Positions 27,985 through 48,099 of a stretch of DNA of 48,099 nt are shown in pieces. Positions within the stretch are counted from its first letter, which is position 1, and each line of letters begins with the position of its first letter. Below the pieces are notes generated by a model. That model had not been told where the DNA came from. It worked only from the letters and a program-made list of their open reading frames with translations, and did not search any database. The position numbers and the translations under genes were made by a program. Source of the DNA: a virus. The stretch is from positions 1-48,099 of IMG/VR virus record IMGVR_UViG_3300048930_001370; one strand, 5' to 3'.

Positions 27985-28208
27985 TGAATACGCCTGCTGC
28001 CGAACGGGAGCAGGCGCTGCGTTGGCTGATCGCCAACCGGCGTCCGGACGTCTCCATCGAACAGGCCGTGCGCTTGATGTGCACGGTGCTGCCGCGCGAT
28101 CTCACCACGATGCAACTGCTGCGGCGCATCGCGGAGGAGGAAGACGCCAAAGCGCCTTCGCACCGATTCAACTGGCGCATCCTTCCTGGTCTGCCGCCTC
28201 GCGGATAG
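27984..28208 (+). CDS. Small helical protein of unknown function (cargo gene 8)
   Basis: 74 aa starting MNTPAAEREQALRWLIANRR. Residues PDVSIEQAVRLMCTVLPRDL and TTMQLLRRIAEEEDAKAPSH form a helical bundle; the tail is RFNWRILPGLPPRG. Translationally coupled to the previous gene. Its last 41 nt overlap the 3' end of the methyltransferase on the other strand (convergent overlap). Function unknown. Confidence 0.68.
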   Translation: MNTPAAEREQALRWLIANRRPDVSIEQAVRLMCTVLPRDLTTMQLLRRIAEEEDAKAPSHRFNWRILPGLPPRG

Positions 28209-29409
28209 CCTGCTTGCCGGTGAAGTCCTCCCAACGCCGCACGATCACGTCGGCGTATTTCGGATCCAACTCCATCACACGCGCCACGCGCCCGGACTTC
28301 TCGGCGGCAATCAGCGTGGTGCCGGAGCCGCCAAATGGATCGAGCACCACAGCGCCCGGCCGCGAACTATTGCGCAGCGCGCGCTCGACCAGTTCGACCG
28401 GCTTCATGGTCGGGTGCAGGTCGTTCTTCTGCGGCTTCTTGATCTGCCAGACGTCGCTCTGGTCGCGGTCGCCGCACCAGTGGCGCTCGGCGCCCTCGGG
28501 CCAGCCGTAGAGGATCGGCTCATACTGCCGCTGGTAGTCGGCACGGCCCAGCGTAAAGGTGTGCTTGGCCCAGATGATGAACGTCGACCAGTGGCCGCCG
28601 GCTGCGCGAAAGGCGGCCTGCAGCGCATCCAACTCGCTCGACGACATTGCGACGTAGATCGCGCCATCGCAGCGCGCGAGCATCGGCGTCAGCGCGGCCA
28701 GCAGGAAGTCGTAGAAGCCGTCGCCCAGGTTGTCGTTGAGGATCGCGCGATCCTTGCCGCGCAGCTTGTCCTTGGCGCTGTTGGCGTAGTTCACGTTGTA
28801 CGGCGGATCGGTGAAGACCATGGCCACGCGCTCGTCGCCGAGCAGCGCGTCGTAGCTCGCCGCCAGGGTCGCGTCGCCGCACAGCAGGCGATGCGGGCCC
28901 ATGTGCCAAATGTCGCCGGCGCGGGACACCGGCGCATCGGACACGTCCGGGATGGCATCCTCATCGGTCTGCCCGGCCACATCCGGTTCGTCGCCGGCCA
29001 TCAGTTCTGCGAGCGCGTCGGCGTCGAAGCCGGTGATGTCGAGGTCGAAGCCAGCGCCCTGCAAGTCGGCAAGTTCGACCCGCAGGAGATCCTCATCCCA
29101 AGTCGCGTTCTCGGCGATGCGGTTGTCGGCCAGCACCAGCGCCCGACGCTGCGTCGGCGTGAGATGGTCGAGCACCACGACCGGCACCGTGATGAGCCCA
29201 AGTTTCTGGGCCGCGGCAAGACGCCCGTGCCCGGCAACAATCACGCCGTCGCTGCCCGCAAGAATCGGGTTGGTGAACCCGAACTCCGCGATGCTGGCGG
29301 CGATCTGCGCCACCTGCGCGTCGGAGTGCTGGCGCGCATTGCGGGCGTAAGGGATGAGCTTGGCGGTCGGCCACGGCTCGATCTTTTCGGCGAGCCAGGA
29401 GCGCGTCAT
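28168..29409 (-). CDS. ParB-like nuclease domain fused to DNA adenine/cytosine methyltransferase (DPPY type)
   Basis: 413 aa. Residues about 11-130 are a ParB/Srx-like domain (KLIPYARNARQHSDAQVAQI, then AGHGRLAAAQKLGL, the GHGR signature). Residues about 165-400 are an amino-methyltransferase: DPPY at 201-204 and FGGSGTT at 359-365, in the order of class beta enzymes. DPPY is typical of N6-adenine methylation. No restriction nuclease is adjacent, so it is probably an orphan enzyme for phage DNA protection or regulation. It overlaps the second methyltransferase gene by 4 nt and is its paralogue. Confidence 0.92.
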   Translation of the reverse strand: MTRSWLAEKIEPWPTAKLIPYARNARQHSDAQVAQIAASIAEFGFTNPILAGSDGVIVAGHGRLAAAQKLGLITVPVVVLDHLTPTQRRALVLADNRIAENATWDEDLLRVELADLQGAGFDLDITGFDADALAELMAGDEPDVAGQTDEDAIPDVSDAPVSRAGDIWHMGPHRLLCGDATLAASYDALLGDERVAMVFTDPPYNVNYANSAKDKLRGKDRAILNDNLGDGFYDFLLAALTPMLARCDGAIYVAMSSSELDALQAAFRAAGGHWSTFIIWAKHTFTLGRADYQRQYEPILYGWPEGAERHWCGDRDQSDVWQIKKPQKNDLHPTMKPVELVERALRNSSRPGAVVLDPFGGSGTTLIAAEKSGRVARVMELDPKYADVIVRRWEDFTGKQAIREAADQEGCAS

Positions 29410-30806
29410 GCGCTGGCTCCGGCGCGCGCCGCGGCCACGGCATCGAAACTCTCTCCGGTCGCGTGCAGGCGCACCGGCACGTCTGGAAAGGTCTGGCGAA
29501 AGCGCCGGATCGCCACGTCCACGTACTCCGGCGCGATTTCGACGGCGCGCGCCAGGCGTTTCGTGCGCTGCGCCGCCAGGATCGTCGTGCCAGAGCCACA
29601 GAACGGCTCGAACACGATCTCGCCCTCAGCCGAGTAGGCCTCGATGACGAACTGCGGCAACGCCACCGGGAACACCGCAGGGTGGTCGATGCCTTCCCCG
29701 ATCTTGCCCTTGTGGCGCATGACCCGGATGACCGAGTCGGGGATGCGGTGGTCCTGCGTGGGCTGGCCGGCATGGGTCCAACCCCCAACGTCGCCATCCT
29801 TGCCGCGCAGTGCGGTGGACGAGCCGTCCGCGCGCAGATGCGTTTCTTGCCCGGCGAACTTGCAGGGCACGATCTTGTTCGGCTTGCGCGTGTCACGGTT
29901 GAAATGGAAGACAAACTCGAAGCTCGGCGCGAGCCGGCCGGCCCAGTCGCCTGGCATGCCCGGGCCCTGGTCCCAGACGTACCACGCGAAGCGTCGCCAA
30001 CCCTGGGCGCGCATCCAGCCGAGCCAGGCATCCCAATAGGGGATGAACTCGTTGTCGCGATGGATCAGGCCGAGGTTGACCAGGACCTGGCCGTCGTCGG
30101 CCATCGGCAGCGGCGCGAACACGCCGCGCATCAGCGCATCCCAATCGGCGATGCCGCCGGTGGTGTAGTCGCGCTGGTTGCCGTAGGGCGGCGAGGTGAA
30201 ACACAACTGCGCCCGGTCCTCCGGCATGAGCGCGGCGATCACCTCGCGGTCGCTGGCGTCGCCGCAAATGAGGCGATGCGCGCCAAGCAACCAGACATCG
30301 CCCAGGCGCGATACCGCAACCGTCGGTGCATCGGGCACCTGGTCGGCCGCGTCGTCCTCTTGCGGCGCTTCCTCGGTTTCCTCGGGATCCGCGTCCTCGA
30401 CGTCGGTGAGCAGCGACTGCAGCTCAGCGTCTTCGAAACCGGTCAGGGCGAGGTCGAACCCGGCCTCGGTGAGGTCAGCGAGTTCCAGCGCCAGCATTTC
30501 CTCGTCCCAGCCAGCATCGAGCGCCAGGCGGTTATCGGCGATCACGTAGGCGCGCTTCTGCGCCGGCGACAGATGGGTCAGCTCGATCACCGGGACGTCG
30601 GCCAGCCCCAGCTTGCGCGCGGCGGCCAGACGCCCGTGACCGGCGATGATGCCGTGGTCGGCATCGACCAGGATCGGCGTGGTCCAGCCGAACTCGACGA
30701 TGCTCGCTGCGATCTTGGCGACCTGCGCATCGTTGTGCGTGCGCGGATTGCGGGCATAGGGGATCAGCGTCTCGACCTGGCGGTACTCGACGTGGAGCGG
30801 ATTCAC
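29406..30806 (-). CDS. ParB-like nuclease domain fused to DNA methyltransferase (SPPY type)
   Basis: 466 aa from a GTG at 30804-30806. The ParB-like N-terminus (LIPYARNPRTHNDAQVAKIA, AGHGRLAAARKLGL) matches that of the neighbouring gene closely. The methyltransferase part has TSPPYG with SPPY at 205-208 and FCGSGTT at 402-408; SPPY is the hallmark of N4-cytosine enzymes. An acidic insert (DVEDADPEETEEAPQEDDAA) separates the domains. The open frame continues to 31145, but that stretch has no homology-like pattern, covers a terminator, and is rejected as coding. Tandem paralogue of the next gene. Confidence 0.9.
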   Translation of the reverse strand: MNPLHVEYRQVETLIPYARNPRTHNDAQVAKIAASIVEFGWTTPILVDADHGIIAGHGRLAAARKLGLADVPVIELTHLSPAQKRAYVIADNRLALDAGWDEEMLALELADLTEAGFDLALTGFEDAELQSLLTDVEDADPEETEEAPQEDDAADQVPDAPTVAVSRLGDVWLLGAHRLICGDASDREVIAALMPEDRAQLCFTSPPYGNQRDYTTGGIADWDALMRGVFAPLPMADDGQVLVNLGLIHRDNEFIPYWDAWLGWMRAQGWRRFAWYVWDQGPGMPGDWAGRLAPSFEFVFHFNRDTRKPNKIVPCKFAGQETHLRADGSSTALRGKDGDVGGWTHAGQPTQDHRIPDSVIRVMRHKGKIGEGIDHPAVFPVALPQFVIEAYSAEGEIVFEPFCGSGTTILAAQRTKRLARAVEIAPEYVDVAIRRFRQTFPDVPVRLHATGESFDAVAAARAGASA

Positions 30807-30821
30807 GCGGATGCGGGTCCT

Positions 30822-30858
30822 GAAAATGAAAAACCCGCCAACGAACGCCGTGGCGGGT
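30822..30858 (-). terminator. Rho-independent terminator upstream of the methyltransferase pair
   Basis: Perfect 8-bp stem ACCCGCCA / TGGCGGGT with a 10-nt loop; on the minus strand it is followed by TTTTCATTTT. It would end transcription arriving from the antitoxin-like genes at 31160-32031, so the methyltransferases need their own promoter or read-through. The GTG of the methyltransferase lies 16 nt beyond. Confidence 0.75.
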
Positions 30859-31159
30859 GGAGTGGAATCGGTGGGGTAGTGCGAACCGGGTGCGAACCTG
30901 CGAACCCTGCGAACCTCGGTTCGCACCCTGACGCTAGGGAAGCATCGCGCTCGCGCCCCCCGCATGGCCCTTCCGGCAGGAAGGACCCCTTTTGCCCCGA
31001 GAGCGTTGCGGCGAAGCCACTGTGGCTTCATCGCCACTGCTCCCGAGCATGGATGAAATCCTACTGCGGATCGCCGAATTTGTTGCGCGGCCTGATCGCC
31101 GCGCATGTCCCAACACCACCACAATCGTGGTGCGCGTCCCGCCAAAACACGCCAAAACC
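30859..31159. other. Intergenic region with TGCGAACC site cluster and palindromes
   Basis: About 300 nt with no credible gene. It holds four direct copies of TGCGAACC (30880, 30891, 30899, 30908), then an inverted copy GGTTCGCA (30918-30925), and a perfect 17-nt palindrome GAAGCCAC-T-GTGGCTTC (31013-31029). CACCAC / GTGGTG (31117-31132) forms a small hairpin just downstream of the antitoxin-like gene. It is likely a regulatory region between the two transcription units. Confidence 0.5.
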
Positions 31160-40964: not shown

Positions 40965-42373
40965 GCGGCAGCCTCCAGGTCGCGGTGCTCCTCGACGAGT
41001 GGGTGAGTGCAGACGTCAGGCCCGAGGCCGATCCATCCGTCCTCGCGCCAGTGGATGTCGAGGCCATCGCCGTGCAGTTGGATGCGCTCGATCAGCAGCC
41101 GCAGGATGCGTTGCTGCTCGGCCGGGAACAGCTGAGCCCAGACATCGCCGATGCGGCGCATGCCGATCACGACCTGCGCCTCATCCAGACCGGCCCCTTC
41201 AGGATGGCGCAAGCACGCGCGCCATACGCCGATCAGGACTTCCGGCGCGGCGAGCGCGGCATGGACCTGCGCCAGCACTGCGTTTTCGATGTCGGCGGCC
41301 GGCAGATGGCCGAGGTTCGGGGCGATGGCGTTCCGCTGGGTTCCCGCGGCATGGCGCTTGTGCATCTGCGGCACGTAGTACCGGTAGCAGCGCCCGTTCT
41401 TCTTGCGTGTGTAGGAGTGAATCATGCGTTGACCATCCGGCGCGAACAGCAAGCCGGCGAGCAATGCGGGATTCTTTTGCAGGGCGTCGCGCGGGCCTTG
41501 CTTGCGGCGCTCCATGAAGGCCTGCACCGCATCCCACGCCTCGCGCGCGACGATGGCTTGATGCTGGCCGGGATAGGCGCGGCCGCGGTGGGTCAGTTCG
41601 CCCAGGTAGATCCGATTGCGCAGCATCTTGAACAGGAACTTTTGGTCGATGGGGCTGCCTGCGCGTTGGCGCCCGGTCTGCGTCACCCATGCCTTGGTGG
41701 TCACGCCTTCCTCAGCGAGTTCACGCACTATCCGCGCCGCCGATCCGTGTTCGCCGTATCGGCGGAACAGATCGCGCACCAGCGCAGCTTCGGGCGAGTT
41801 GACCACGAGCTTGCGCTCGACCACGTCGTACCCGAGCGGAGGCACACCGCCCATCCACATGCCCTTGGCCTTGCTGGCGGCGATCTTGTCGCGGATGCGC
41901 TCGCCCGTGACCTCGCGCTCGAACTGCGCGAACGAGAGCAGGATGTTCAACGTAAGCCGCCCCATCGACGTCGTGGTGTTGAACTGCTGCGTCACGGACA
42001 CAAAAGAGGCGTTGTTGCGGTCGAACACATCGACGAGCCTGGCGAAATCCGCGAGCGAGCGCGTCAGTCGGTCGATCTTGTAGACGACCACGATGTCGAC
42101 GCGCTTGGCCTCGATGTCGGCGAGCAGGCGCCGTAGTCCCGGGCGCTCCATGTTGCCGCCCGAGAAGCCGCCATCGTCGTAGCCATCGTCCAGCGCCACC
42201 CAGCCTTCGTGGCGCTGGCTGGCGATGAACGCCAGGCCGGCATCGCGCTGGGCTTCGAGGCTGTTGTACTCCTGGTCGAGTCCCTCGTCGCTGGATTTGC
42301 GGGTGTAGATCGCACAGCGTTTCTTGGTGACGACCGGCGCCGGCGGCGCGTAGGCAGTGCGCTGCGGCTTCAT
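40961..42373 (-). CDS. Large serine recombinase (putative integrase)
   Basis: 470 aa. N-terminal resolvase domain with catalytic S27 in AIYTRKSSDEG, then NSLEAQRDAGLAFIASQRHE, DDGGFSGGNMERPGLRRLLA, VVVYKIDRLTRSLADFARLV and SFAQFEREVTGERIRDKIAA. A recombinase domain follows at about 185-260 (PPLGYDVVERKLVVNSPEAA). There is no CxxC zinc ribbon in the C-terminal part; instead a basic region RKKNGRCYRYYVPQ is seen. It likely integrates the phage. The ATG overlaps DUF2924 stop. Confidence 0.94.
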   Translation of the reverse strand: MKPQRTAYAPPAPVVTKKRCAIYTRKSSDEGLDQEYNSLEAQRDAGLAFIASQRHEGWVALDDGYDDGGFSGGNMERPGLRRLLADIEAKRVDIVVVYKIDRLTRSLADFARLVDVFDRNNASFVSVTQQFNTTTSMGRLTLNILLSFAQFEREVTGERIRDKIAASKAKGMWMGGVPPLGYDVVERKLVVNSPEAALVRDLFRRYGEHGSAARIVRELAEEGVTTKAWVTQTGRQRAGSPIDQKFLFKMLRNRIYLGELTHRGRAYPGQHQAIVAREAWDAVQAFMERRKQGPRDALQKNPALLAGLLFAPDGQRMIHSYTRKKNGRCYRYYVPQMHKRHAAGTQRNAIAPNLGHLPAADIENAVLAQVHAALAAPEVLIGVWRACLRHPEGAGLDEAQVVIGMRRIGDVWAQLFPAEQQRILRLLIERIQLHGDGLDIHWREDGWIGLGPDVCTHPLVEEHRDLEAAA

Positions 42374-42831
42374 GCGCGCTCCTTCGTGGTGAGACCGAAG
42401 AAGGCAGGGCCGGACCAGCGCGTGCCGGCGATGTGGCAGGCAATGGCCGTCAGGCTGGTATAGCGACGTCCGTCGTACTCGAAGTCGTTCGGCCCTCGCA
42501 CCAGGACGCGGTGCTCAACGTCGTCGAACATGCGCGTCAGCATCGTGCCCGGCAACAGTCGGTTGGCGTCGCGCCGCATCGCGCGCGGCAGCAAGCCGGT
42601 CTGGCCAATCTCCTCCAGCTGCTTGCGCACCGAAGGCTTCAAACCGCCGAAGGCGCGCTCCTGCATCCGGTAGGCAAGTCGGGATTCGAGCCAAACGCGC
42701 TGGTGGTGGCCGGGGCGTTCGTCGAAGTAGTCGTCCCACAGCGCCCACAGTTGCTCCATCGACAAGTGCGGCAGCTGCGCGACGCGGGCGGCGACCGTTG
42801 CGGCGTCGGGGTGGGTTTCGGTTTTGCGCAT
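42370..42831 (-). CDS. DUF2924-domain protein
   Basis: 153 aa starting MRKTETHPDAATVAARVAQL. Typical DUF2924 pieces: LSMEQLWALWDDYFDERPGH, LAYRMQERAFGGLKPSVRKQ, LLPGTMLTRMFDDVEHRVLV and FEYDGRRYTSLTAIACHIAG TRWSGPAFFGL. This family almost always lies just before a serine recombinase, as here, and its N-terminal part could bind DNA or the recombinase. AAGGAG lies 7 nt upstream of ATG. Preceded by copy 7 of the 32-bp element. Confidence 0.93.
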   Translation of the reverse strand: MRKTETHPDAATVAARVAQLPHLSMEQLWALWDDYFDERPGHHQRVWLESRLAYRMQERAFGGLKPSVRKQLEEIGQTGLLPRAMRRDANRLLPGTMLTRMFDDVEHRVLVRGPNDFEYDGRRYTSLTAIACHIAGTRWSGPAFFGLTTKERA

Positions 42832-44442: not shown

Positions 44443-45372
44443 TCAGCGAGTCGGGTACTGACCGGAAGAGCGAAACTGATCACTGGCGTTTAGGACGTGC
44501 TCGTCCTTCCACGAATCGTCCCAGTCCCGTGGCTCCGCGCCTTCGAGTAGAAGAAGCGTGATCACGCGGTCCCGGTCGGTGTAGGTGTGCTTGAACTCGC
44601 GCAATTTCATGTGCACGCCCTCTTCAGCGCACCAGATCGCGGCGGAGCATTCCACGCCGTCGAAGCATTGCACCACGCTGTCGTCGGCGGCCAGGGTGCC
44701 GGCGAACGGCTCCTGCGCAGACTCCGACTGGCGGACGCGAGCGCGGGTCATGCGCGCGTTGCGGCTGGCGCGCTGGTACTTGAGGAAACCCTGGTCCCAG
44801 TGGATCAAGATCGCGCGCTGGTCGGTGGCTTCGATGAAGCGCAAGCACAGGGCTTCGAAGGAGACTTCGAATCTGCGCGCGATGTCGCTCAGCAGGTGCA
44901 TGGTGACCTTCCGCTGATCGCCGAGGAGGCGCCGGAGCAGATCCAGGGGCATCAGCAGGTTGCTGGCAAAATCGTTGGCTTCGCGCTCGATGTTCCGACC
45001 GTCGAACTGGCCGGAGGTGACGCCGCGGTTATCGCACTCGAAGCTGTCTTGCAGCGCACGGTGCAGGACGAAGTGGCCCAGCTCATGCGCGATGGTGAAG
45101 CGACTGCGCTCGGGTGTTGCGTATTCCTTGTAGAGGATGCCCCATTCGGCCGGGTCGTCAGGGTTGCGTACCAGGGCGCCTTCGAAGCCGTTGACGTTCA
45201 GCGGCATCGGCGCCTTGATCTCACGGACACCCTTGCCATACGGCGTCCCCGGAAGCATCTGGCGAAGCACATCCAGATTGGTGGCTTCGGGCATGGTCTC
45301 GCCATGCCAGTGGCGCAACCACTTCAGCGCCGTGTTGGCCGCGATGGAGGGGGTGAGATCTGTGTCATTCAC
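44443..45372 (-). CDS. immA: ImmA/IrrE-family metalloprotease
   Basis: 309 aa from GTG overlapping the XRE stop (GTGA). Zinc-site HELGH at 96-100 (SRFTIAHELGHFVLHRA), then NIEREANDFASNLLMPLDLL with a third ligand Glu at about 130. The C-terminal ~120 residues form a second domain that may sense a signal. In ICEBs1 and temperate phages, ImmA cleaves the XRE repressor to allow induction. Paired XRE-ImmA genes are the expected switch here. Confidence 0.92.
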   Translation of the reverse strand: MNDTDLTPSIAANTALKWLRHWHGETMPEATNLDVLRQMLPGTPYGKGVREIKAPMPLNVNGFEGALVRNPDDPAEWGILYKEYATPERSRFTIAHELGHFVLHRALQDSFECDNRGVTSGQFDGRNIEREANDFASNLLMPLDLLRRLLGDQRKVTMHLLSDIARRFEVSFEALCLRFIEATDQRAILIHWDQGFLKYQRASRNARMTRARVRQSESAQEPFAGTLAADDSVVQCFDGVECSAAIWCAEEGVHMKLREFKHTYTDRDRVITLLLLEGAEPRDWDDSWKDEHVLNASDQFRSSGQYPTR

Positions 45373-45716
45373 GACTTGGCGTCACCCTCGCCTCGACCGG
45401 GGAACATGAGCTTCAACGCCTTGCGATAGCGCTCCTTCTCCTCGTCGGTCATGCCAGCGTATTCCCGAAAGAACGCGACATCCTCGGGCTTGGCTTCGTG
45501 AACCGGGCGAGGTGTTTCCTCCATGAGGTCCTCGACCGTGACGCCGAAGGTCTTCGCGAGCAGGAGCACGCGCTCGGCCGTCGGTCTTTGGCCATCCTTC
45601 ATCTCCAGTTCCCAGATGTAGCCGCGGGTGCAGCCGACCGCTTCGGCCACCTGCTGCAGGGTCATGCCTTTGGCTTCGCGTAGGCGCCGAAGCCGGGTTC
45701 CGAGTGTGGTTGCCAT
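45369..45716 (-). CDS. immR: XRE-family repressor, partner of ImmA
   Basis: 115 aa starting MATTLGTRLRRLREAKGMTL. HTH: QQVAEAVGCTRGYIWELEMK, DGQRPTAERVLLLAKTFGVT. C-terminal tail: EDLMEETPRPVHEAKPEDVA, FFREYAGMTDEEKERYRKAL. Likely the lysogeny repressor, cleaved by ImmA. A -10-like TATACT lies about 45 nt upstream and overlaps the operator-like site at 45762. The open frame to 45812 is not supported. Confidence 0.9.
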   Translation of the reverse strand: MATTLGTRLRRLREAKGMTLQQVAEAVGCTRGYIWELEMKDGQRPTAERVLLLAKTFGVTVEDLMEETPRPVHEAKPEDVAFFREYAGMTDEEKERYRKALKLMFPGRGEGDAKS

Positions 45717-45739
45717 CAGTCTGCTTCTAGGGGAAAGGC

Positions 45740-45756
45740 GTCTCAGGACGTGAGAC
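45740..45756. promoter_or_regulatory. 6-bp inverted repeat GTCTCA/TGAGAC
   Basis: GTCTCA-GGACG-TGAGAC, a perfect inverted repeat 24 nt upstream of the XRE start. A third potential operator in this divergent region, or the 5' untranslated leader of the XRE mRNA. Confidence 0.4.
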
Positions 45757-45761
45757 CAGAA

Positions 45762-45780
45762 GTATAGCCACGAGATACAT
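45762..45780 (-). promoter_or_regulatory. Operator-like site A with XRE -10 box
   Basis: Read on the minus strand: ATGTATCTCG then TGGC then TATAC. It contains TATACT, a good -10 for the XRE gene, and shares TGTATCTCG with site B. A repressor bound here would block its own promoter. Confidence 0.5.
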
Positions 45781-45805
45781 GCGCGGGGTGATGCGCTCTC
45801 GATGA

Positions 45806-45852
45806 TTGACAAGCGGAAGTCCGGGCACTAGCCTGCACTGTATCTCGCTACA
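45806..45852 (+). promoter_or_regulatory. Plus-strand promoter with operator-like site B
   Basis: TTGACA at 45806-45811 and TAGCCT at 45829-45834 with a 17-nt spacer. Site B, TGTA-TCTCGC-TACA (45839-45852), lies just downstream and shares TGTATCTCG with site A. It would drive the gene at 45952 under control of the XRE repressor. The -10 match is only partial. Confidence 0.5.
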
Positions 45853-45951
45853 CGACAAACAAACGGAGCGTTGCCTTCAAAGACTGACACTCGTTGTGCC
45901 TGATCCGCGCTGTCCAGACCCCTGCCAGTTCTTTGAAGGAAGCCTCCCGCA

Positions 45952-47178
45952 ATGAAGAAGACGTTTGTCGATGTGCTGCTCGAACTCCCCGTTGATGCCA
46001 CGCTCCAGCAGTTCCTGACCGAGCACGCGCTCCCCGTGCCGCTGGGATTCGCGTGGGACGACACCCCTGAGACCTCCCGTGCGCTGCTCGACTGCGTGCG
46101 CCAATGGCCCGATGTTGATGCCAAGGATCGCCTGATCGGCGAACTGAACGCTTGCCTGCCCTTGGCTGACGGGCCGGGGCAGCAGGCCATCTTCCAGGTG
46201 GCTGCCAGCGGCGGCAGCGCGTTGGTCGGGCTCGCGAGCTGCAAGAGCGATCTGCACCGAGCCTTCTGGTTCTACCGGCACCATCCCGAGCTGTTCCGAC
46301 ACGCGCTCGATGCGGACTTCATCGAGCGTCGTGGCAGCCAGGCTCAGCAGCATGCGCTGGGTATCAAGCGCCATCCGAATATGACCAAGCCCGCGCTCGC
46401 GGCCTTTGGCCAGGCCGTTTCCAGGTTCTATCAGCGGACGCTGAGTTGTGGCGATGGCGTCGAGACCACGATCTTCCAGCGCAGTCCTGGCGTGTTCCTG
46501 CTGACCACGCACGTCAAGGGATTGGCGACGATGCACCTCGAGTTCCAGGGCACGTCGCTGACGCGCCGCATCGGCAACCCGAGCATTCACGGAATGCTGG
46601 AGTACTCCGAGAAGACCGGCGTCGTGCGCACCTTGATCAGGGGTGGTGCCGCCTTTCACCAGATGCTGGCCAGCGAGTTCGCCACCCATGTGCTCGGCCA
46701 GGCCGTGGACGCGAAGCGCATCAAGCCGGAGAAACTCGACCTCACTCAGTTCCGCGCCGGCGTCGATTTCCCGCAGGCGATCAAGGACGGGTTCGTTGCG
46801 GTCCAGCTGAAGCAGATCACGGTGATGAGTCCAACCGGCAAGCTCAAGGTCGAAGCCACGGCGACGGCGATGGCTCAGCACCAGTCGGTCACCGAGTTGA
46901 TGCAGGAAGAGATGCCGGCGCCGCTGGAGGGCGGCTGGACGGTAAACGCCGTGCAGATCAACCTGTACTACCCGGGCGAGGGCGGGCGCAGGCACCGCGT
47001 GGTCACCGCCGAGTTGACCAGCATGGGTCGGCTGCGATTGCCAATGCGCGATCCGGTGATGAAGGCCAACGTCGAGCGCTACCTCGTCGAGAAGGGAATC
47101 CTGGCGCGCGGCCAGACGCTGGATGCGGACGACTTCCCGCAAGTCGACGAGCAGCGGCACTCGATGGCGGAGGACTGA
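45952..47178 (+). CDS. Protein of unknown function, divergent from repressor
   Basis: 408 aa starting MKKTFVDVLLELPVDATLQQ. No membrane segment or catalytic motif was found. Residues about 130-330 look like a mixed alpha/beta domain with HVKGLATMHLEFQGTSLTRR, IGNPSIHGMLEYSEKTGVVR and FVAVQLKQITVMSPTGKLKV; the C-terminal part has VNAVQINLYYPGEGGRRHRV. GGAAG lies before ATG. Arrangement with the downstream zinc-finger protein, close to a repressor-protease switch, suggests an accessory system. Not recognised. Confidence 0.82.
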   Translation: MKKTFVDVLLELPVDATLQQFLTEHALPVPLGFAWDDTPETSRALLDCVRQWPDVDAKDRLIGELNACLPLADGPGQQAIFQVAASGGSALVGLASCKSDLHRAFWFYRHHPELFRHALDADFIERRGSQAQQHALGIKRHPNMTKPALAAFGQAVSRFYQRTLSCGDGVETTIFQRSPGVFLLTTHVKGLATMHLEFQGTSLTRRIGNPSIHGMLEYSEKTGVVRTLIRGGAAFHQMLASEFATHVLGQAVDAKRIKPEKLDLTQFRAGVDFPQAIKDGFVAVQLKQITVMSPTGKLKVEATATAMAQHQSVTELMQEEMPAPLEGGWTVNAVQINLYYPGEGGRRHRVVTAELTSMGRLRLPMRDPVMKANVERYLVEKGILARGQTLDADDFPQVDEQRHSMAED

Positions 47179-47181
47179 TCG

Positions 47182-48099
47182 TTGTCGGCGGATGCGGAGT
47201 GGGCGCTGGTGTGCCGCTTGTTCTCGACCGGCACGCCGGTGATGAGGATGCGACTGCCGGAGTCCGAGGCTGCCTTGCTGCCCGGACTGACCAAGGCGGT
47301 GAAGCCGACCATGATCAACGCCAGCATTGTGCCGTGCCCTTACTGCGTGATGGCCGGTGGCGAAGTGAGGCGCGGTGGTGACGGTTATCTGGAGTGCTGC
47401 TGCGTCGAGTGCGGGCCGGTGTCGGTCGATCCCGACGACCTTACGGCGTTCACGCTCGACGATCAGTGGCTGCACCGCAAGCTGCGAGCAGCACTGGACA
47501 TCGAATCGGATGGCGGGTCGACGACCCTTACGGCGGGGGCGTGGATGCTCGGCCGCAGCGGGAAGACGCCGGTGGTGCTGACGCGCGACATCCCTCGGCT
47601 GTGGCGCGAAGCAGGACTGCTGGAACGAGTCAGGATCGCCAACGGCCCGGTGCGCGTGATCGCGCCGGCCCGGCAGATCGCGATGGGTGTGCCATCCGAT
47701 GCGGGCGTCGAGTGGCTGGCGCTGGAAGATCGGTTCCGATTGCGCGGCGAAGCCATCTCGTTTCTCGGTGCGCCCGGGGCAGTGGTCGCGCGACGCAAGA
47801 ATGATCCGGCGGCACCGGTGCACGGGCCGTTCTCGGCGGACTTCCGTTTCGTGTACCTGGACGGCGAAGAGAGCCCGCCGATTCGGTGCACGAAGGCGCA
47901 GGCCGATGTGTTCCGCGCGCTCTGGGAGTTCGAGGGCAAGGACCGCTCAGCGGAAGACGTGATGACGCGTGCCGGGCGCAAAAGCGCGAAGCCCATCGAC
48001 GTGTTCAAGGCGCATCCCGAGCCCAAGCGAGCCTACGAGGCATTGGTCGATGCCAACCAGAAGGAAGGCTTGTACCGCATGACGTGCGCGGCCCGCTGA
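47182..48099 (+). CDS. Zinc-ribbon and HTH protein of unknown function
   Basis: 305 aa from a TTG at 47182-47184, with GGAGG 8 nt upstream and only 3 nt from the previous stop. Zinc ribbon: CPYC (about 52-55) and CCCVEC (about 72-77). C-terminal HTH-like region: RCTKAQADVFRALWEFEGKD, RSAEDVMTRAGRKSAKPIDV and YEALVDANQKEGLYRMTC. Middle has two beta-rich segments (TPVVLTRDIPRLWREAGLLE, VRVIAPARQIAMGVPSD). Likely DNA- or RNA-binding; co-operonic with the previous gene, so they act together. Family not recognised. The window ends exactly at its stop. Confidence 0.85.
   Translation: MSADAEWALVCRLFSTGTPVMRMRLPESEAALLPGLTKAVKPTMINASIVPCPYCVMAGGEVRRGGDGYLECCCVECGPVSVDPDDLTAFTLDDQWLHRKLRAALDIESDGGSTTLTAGAWMLGRSGKTPVVLTRDIPRLWREAGLLERVRIANGPVRVIAPARQIAMGVPSDAGVEWLALEDRFRLRGEAISFLGAPGAVVARRKNDPAAPVHGPFSADFRFVYLDGEESPPIRCTKAQADVFRALWEFEGKDRSAEDVMTRAGRKSAKPIDVFKAHPEPKRAYEALVDANQKEGLYRMTCAAR

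Follow-up and report, generated by a model that had tools for sequence, protein, structure and literature searches.

Among described systems, the closest counterparts of the locus reported here are two repressor-protease switches. CapH and CapP are a repressor and a protease activated by single-stranded DNA, the neighbouring operon being derepressed upon DNA damage, and immune operons are known to be controlled by CapH+CapP, by CapW and by CapK+CapS (PMC13373217). In parallel, the ImmR-ImmA pair is described as a DNA-damage-responsive switch of integrative elements (PMC10233336). We analysed the complete IMG/VR record IMGVR_UViG_3300048930_001370 (48,099 bases, hereafter the window), a temperate tailed phage with terminase, portal, head, tail, replication and integrase genes, near whose right end the genes of an XRE repressor and an ImmA/IrrE-type metalloprotease (XRE and ImmA) diverge from two adjacent genes, A and B. 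We propose, with a probability of roughly 0.5, that these four genes form the lysis-lysogeny control unit of an uncultivated temperate siphovirus-type lineage, in which A-B would be the damage-induced lytic trigger and would act in trans. The switch is of a known type; its output, A-B, is undescribed.

The likeness to CapH+CapP lies in an XRE and ImmA-type protease pair adjoining the operon that it would control, and here too operator-like sites are predicted at the promoter of that operon. CapH and CapP are the top PADLOC families for XRE and ImmA, ahead of all others in the library: XRE matches capH (PDLC04142) over residues 2-101 (E-value [E] 1.6e-22), and ImmA matches capP over model positions 37-242 of 242 (E 1.2e-49) and carries a conserved HExxH motif, HELGH. 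The genes under putative control are, however, phage core genes (A-B) and not a cyclic-oligonucleotide-based antiphage signalling system (CBASS) or other known immune operon. By profile and by candidate operators XRE-ImmA thus appears CapH/CapP-like, yet not as the controller of a known immune system. With ImmR-ImmA of ICEBs1 and TnSmu1 it would share the principle that an integrated element is excised or activated upon DNA damage under the control of a repressor and a protease, whereas in the present case the element is a tailed phage that encodes a serine recombinase; the portion of the ICEBs1/TnSmu1 description at hand contains no counterpart of A-B (PMC10233336).

Results

XRE-ImmA and A-B are linked across a conserved divergent promoter region

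The start codons of XRE and A are 244 nucleotides (nt) apart (coordinates of all features are given in Table 1). An earlier note on this DNA had described matching sites in a gap of 235 nt; the sites are there, as an inverted pair of TGTATCTCG, and the length was an underestimate. These two copies are the sole exact occurrences of TGTATCTCG in the window (0.12 expected). Among 73 non-redundant homologous intergenic regions, which are mutually related and comprise only 5 groups below 65% identity, both sites recur with at most one mismatch in 74% (0.05% of shuffles) and with at most two mismatches in 73/73, almost always at a spacing of 68-70 nt. The predicted promoter of A in the relatives has the -35 element TTGACA and a -10 element TAGAAT or similar, with the putative operator right behind the -10. 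Members of a second phage clade that also has A-B retain TTGACA and a -10 resembling TAGAAT, and most have TGTATC at the equivalent position; more distant phages show the same layout with another palindrome in its place, CGTTCGGCACACCGAACG (CGTTCGG..CCGAACG), which is what a joint change of repressor and operator would produce. A search for CapH-operator-like palindromes elsewhere in the window found none. XRE very probably regulates A-B.

The linkage of the four genes was read from scans seeded with A, which gave 25 viral contigs together with 74 loci in genomes, chiefly those of beta- and gammaproteobacteria, and from scans seeded with ImmA, which gave 57 viral loci. B directly follows A in all 87 A-seeded loci that had enough sequence to be counted (at a distance of 3 nt in 68 of them), and XRE-ImmA diverges from A in 86 of the 87. 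The exception, L022, has lost XRE-ImmA and retains TTGTATCTCATGGTTTTACT, which resembles the right operator. Conversely, a divergent A-B was present in 40/40 ImmA-seeded phage loci that reach far enough to judge. The proposal of the earlier note that the four genes could be one unit is supported by this near-invariant linkage and by the shared divergent promoter region with its putative operators. The same note had regarded the occurrence of A-B mostly without XRE-ImmA as the pattern that would speak against a unit; this is not seen within the lineage, whereas in the wider family of A a divergent XRE-ImmA accompanies only 13 of 33 distant loci, another controller of the DNA-damage type often taking its place. 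Taken on its sequence anatomy, the locus supports a single four-gene unit that would be inducible.

B is a candidate DNA-binding factor and A its putative partner

Several features of the pair that the earlier note had picked out could be confirmed: A and B are coupled at a distance of 3 nt, with GGAGG ~7 nt ahead of the TTG start of B; B has a CxxC...CxCxxC zinc ribbon that is kept in close relatives and a predicted C-terminal winged helix; and neither gene has a known catalytic motif or, in searches of Pfam, NCBIfam, PADLOC, PHROGs and PDB, a described function. In close relatives, the ribbon cysteines C52, C55, C72 and C74 of B are invariant and C77 is nearly so. The AlphaFold2 model of B has a mean predicted local distance difference test score (pLDDT) of 84.6, mostly 90-95 for residues 231-290, and its top Foldseek matches are weak ones to winged helices of the OmpR/PhoB/ToxR type (probability up to 0.94, E 0.1-0.2). 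The resemblance to these regulators concerns the predicted fold of the C-terminal part; B differs in having neither a Pfam match nor a receiver domain, a zinc ribbon taking the N-terminal position, and the Foldseek E-values exceed 0.1. Phages and satellites are known to encode zinc-binding factors that activate phage genes, such as P2 Ogr and P4 Delta. The likeness of B to these is one of analogy only, with no sequence match seen; B exceeds them in size and is distinguished by its predicted winged helix and by its putative partner, A. On the basis of the model and the ribbon, B is likely a DNA-binding factor.

The sole match of A and B in Pfam, NCBIfam, PADLOC and PHROGs is that of A to phrog_37634, a family of unknown function (E 5e-27; residues 16-363 against profile positions 16-384 of 416). 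This profile covers most of A, yet the family comes without function, partner gene or controller, and B matches no family. A sequence search of the PDB with four profiles gave nothing significant for either protein, and Foldseek comparison of the A model with the PDB and BFVD yielded best E-values of 0.07 and 1e-3 at template modelling (TM) scores below 0.25 from a weak model, and thus no confident fold relative. The ratio of nonsynonymous to synonymous substitution rates (dN/dS) against close relatives is 0.07-0.10 for A, whose alignment comprises 89 relatives, and 0.23 for B, indicating that both are real genes under purifying selection. As a separate observation, a small protein (~76-113 aa, DUF2188-like by eye) repeatedly adjoins A-B, lying after B in L005, L015, L018 and L019 and before A in L219 (1646-1888).

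A-B as a proposed lytic trigger acting in trans

According to our model, XRE (CapH/ImmR-like) would occupy the inverted TGTATCTCG operators in the lysogen, silencing the A-B promoter and regulating its own. Upon DNA damage, ImmA (CapP-like) would cleave XRE and the A-B promoter would fire. A-B would work in trans as a self-contained two-gene operon, B most likely being the DNA-binding factor (zinc ribbon plus winged helix) and A its obligate partner, and the two together would drive the prophage to lytic development by way of excision, replication or lytic transcription. Downstream of A-B in the second clade come an excisionase-like gene and early genes with the same orientation, but in 5 of the 11 loci that were measured B is set apart from the excisionase-like gene by the same terminator-like hairpin, which suggests that A-B acts in trans. 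A candidate role as the head of an early operon, exerted by read-through, was weakened by this hairpin and by the opposite gene order of the window.

The family of A-B extends well beyond the lineage. With a broad profile, A was detected in 32 (8%) of the 398 Pseudomonadota genomes sampled, often in more than one copy per genome. In 28 of the 33 distant loci the gene immediately after A is B-like, the remaining five, without an adjoining B, looking broken or cut by a contig end, and distant B proteins are homologous to B over 212 columns (hhalign E 6e-12). Other distant loci have, as controller, an XRE-ImmA fusion or ImmA-like protein on the same strand, a WYL gene or a LexA-N-like one (both of these last labels were read off the sequence, and distant neighbours were taken from greedy open reading frame calls and protein starts). 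A stress-type controller is the feature common to the phage loci of A-B, and such controllers ahead of distant A-B lend support to a damage switch. A further distant set resides in islands alongside AlpA-like and primase genes, type I restriction-modification (RM) genes or a ubiquitin-like/JAB/ThiF operon. It is possible, and we put this forward tentatively, that phages, satellites and islands share in A-B a widespread and so far undescribed effector pair that is placed under interchangeable DNA-damage controllers (CapH/CapP, LexA-like, WYL and fused XRE-ImmA) and has no known mechanistic relative; it would then be a lytic activator of a new class or else a new defence set off by damage.

Four observations weigh against A-B as the lytic trigger. 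The replication genes of the window are on the other strand, out of reach of read-through from A-B. Many distant B proteins have lost the ribbon cysteines. A is without a known fold, and its AlphaFold2 model is weak (pLDDT 73, predicted TM score 0.45). Finally, the presence of A-B beside type I RM genes or the ubiquitin-like operon in islands is not predicted for a pure lytic factor and fits a phage lytic factor only if the islands are satellites.

Changing cargo and a stable A-B

ImmA and the DUF2924 gene are separated by a slot that measures 48 bp to 6.7 kb and whose content changes among relatives and includes GmrSD, HEC-05-like, HEC-07-like, SIR2, trypsin-like, OST-HTH and beta-lactamase-family proteins, and an SMEK/REase-type protein in the window. 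Of 102 larger slots, 74 have a first long gene that begins no more than 60 nt from the ImmA stop, pointing to its probable co-expression with the repressor. Three cargo types are recorded here in their own right: the commonest slot gene, found in the L098 group (26 slots), encodes a C-terminal OST-HTH/LOTUS domain, unusual as phage cargo; the slot of one prophage (L157, 7244-8176, - strand) holds a beta-lactamase enzyme family protein (PF13354, 2.4e-44); and one phage (L019 and L164) has catalase-peroxidase-like and Dps-like genes (read from sequence) in its slot.

The slot bears directly on the accessory or defence role that the earlier note had envisaged for A-B. That A-B is a prophage-borne defence or superinfection-exclusion system, freed by CapH/CapP when another phage damages DNA, would accord with the control of immune operons by CapH+CapP, CapW and CapK+CapS (PMC13373217), with the type I RM genes and ubiquitin-like operon that adjoin distant A-B, and with the WYL or LexA-like controllers ahead of several of them. 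We nevertheless consider it unlikely, because A-B is invariant in the lineage (87/87), unlike the cargo, because neither protein has a recognisable effector domain or a PADLOC match in any clade tested (the window and five distant loci), and because the defence-like genes of these phages sit in the other slot. The invariance of A-B while other genes turn over favours a core phage role over defence, and the earlier suggestion is not supported for this lineage; defence genes, if the window phage carries any, are more likely to be in the ImmA-DUF2924 slot than in A-B.

An early host-takeover or anti-defence operon, made at entry or induction and directed for example against host RM or DNA repair, would likewise explain the strong-looking sigma-70-type promoter with its putative operator next to the switch, the terminator that A-B has of its own in part of the second clade, and its occurrence near RM loci in islands. 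Turnover is the rule for anti-defence genes, whereas A-B is very stable over hosts and phage clades, and the predicted zinc ribbon and winged helix of B suggest DNA binding, all of which makes this explanation quite improbable.

Attachment at tRNA gene ends

Past B, most genome loci have a transfer RNA (tRNA) gene of which the 3' end comes first, often at 279 or ~625-660 nt. The target tRNAs (Phe, Ala-CGC, Lys, Glu and Met) have little in common beyond the CCACCA end, which is followed by a similar hairpin terminator. Two phages (L055 and L057) that are 99.9% identical over 12.5 kb are found at tRNA-Phe in one genome and at tRNA-Lys (CTT) in another, and a few copies (L082, L043, L062 and L023) occupy non-tRNA sites ending in CACCACCA. 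A search for direct repeats of at least 14 nt between the two ends of ten elements gave none that were convincing, only scattered 14-mers, which is consistent with a very short core and serine-recombinase chemistry. Judged by these sequences, this is a serine-recombinase phage with apparent specificity for tRNA 3' ends. As a side observation, the near-identical phages at tRNA 3' CCACCA ends bring an element-borne tRNA terminator.

That A-B is a recombination directionality or attachment-site factor aiding the serine recombinase in prophage excision, as its position as the last unit before the tRNA 3'-end attachment end (usually 279-660 nt away in the window lineage) and its travelling with the DUF2924-recombinase module might suggest, we regard as quite improbable, since A-B also occurs in islands where a tyrosine recombinase, or no recombinase at all, lies nearby (L149, L153 and L154), the phage already has a small excisionase-like gene (HTH82) and two large proteins are unusual for such a factor.

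If A-B is indeed the lytic trigger, the uncultivated lineage would have a way out of dormancy that involves no recognisable Cro, CII or antirepressor, and CapH/CapP, mostly discussed for bacterial immunity, would be tied to prophage induction. With A-B behind several unrelated controllers of the DNA-damage type, a common output outside immune systems becomes a testable question.

Organisation of the phage record

The terminase, portal, capsid, tail, primase, Cas4-type exonuclease and Sak4-type annealing protein genes of the window are all on the - strand, as are, at the right end, the DUF2924, large serine recombinase, cargo, ImmA and XRE genes; A and B are opposite, on the + strand (Table 1). 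Relatives of A were found neither among 50,697 GenBank phages nor among PLSDB plasmids, and close relatives of ImmA were absent from the same GenBank phages, so that the lineage is apparently known from prophages and metagenomes only.

Table 1. Features at the right end of the window, with predicted promoter elements and putative operators
Feature	Coordinates	Strand	Details
Large serine recombinase (putative phage integrase)	40961..42373	-	Resolvase, Recombinase; phrog_95 integrase 3e-106
DUF2924 protein, integration module	42370..42831	-	PF11149 7.3e-44
Cargo gene, SMEK_N / REase-type protein, 349 aa	43245..44294	-	ATG 44294; PF21941 2.8e-40; PADLOC Aga_REase-PNTD 1.6e-37
ImmA/IrrE-type metalloprotease, CapP-like, 309 aa	44443..45372	-	GTG start 45372; PF06114 5.7e-21; HELGH
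XRE repressor, CapH-like, 112 aa	45369..45707	-	ATG 45707; HTH_31, HTH_3; PADLOC capH
XRE promoter -10 (TATACT), predicted	45761..45766	-	Conserved AGTATAGC block
Left putative operator half-site TGTATCTCG	45771..45779	-	Immediately upstream of XRE -10
Promoter of A, predicted	45806..45834	+	TTGACA 45806-45811, 17 nt, TAGCCT 45829-45834; conserved TGATTGACAAGCGGAA block
Right putative operator half-site TGTATCTCG	45839..45847	+	~5 nt past -10 of A promoter
Gene A, 408 aa, phrog_37634 family	45952..47178	+	N-terminal helical domain, beta-rich C-terminal half
Gene B, 305 aa, TTG start	47182..48099	+	N-terminal zinc ribbon, predicted C-terminal winged helix; stop codon ends on the final base of the record

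The left end can be placed approximately only, as identity with relatives ends at the lysozyme gene and the cargo differs past that point. At the left ends of L101-L102 and L121-L122 the prophage stops at the lysozyme gene, and the genomes diverge beyond it and may hold RM-like or other cargo. Elsewhere in the window, two genes for ParB-methyltransferase fusions, both assigned to phrog_498, lie side by side on the - strand (28168-31145).

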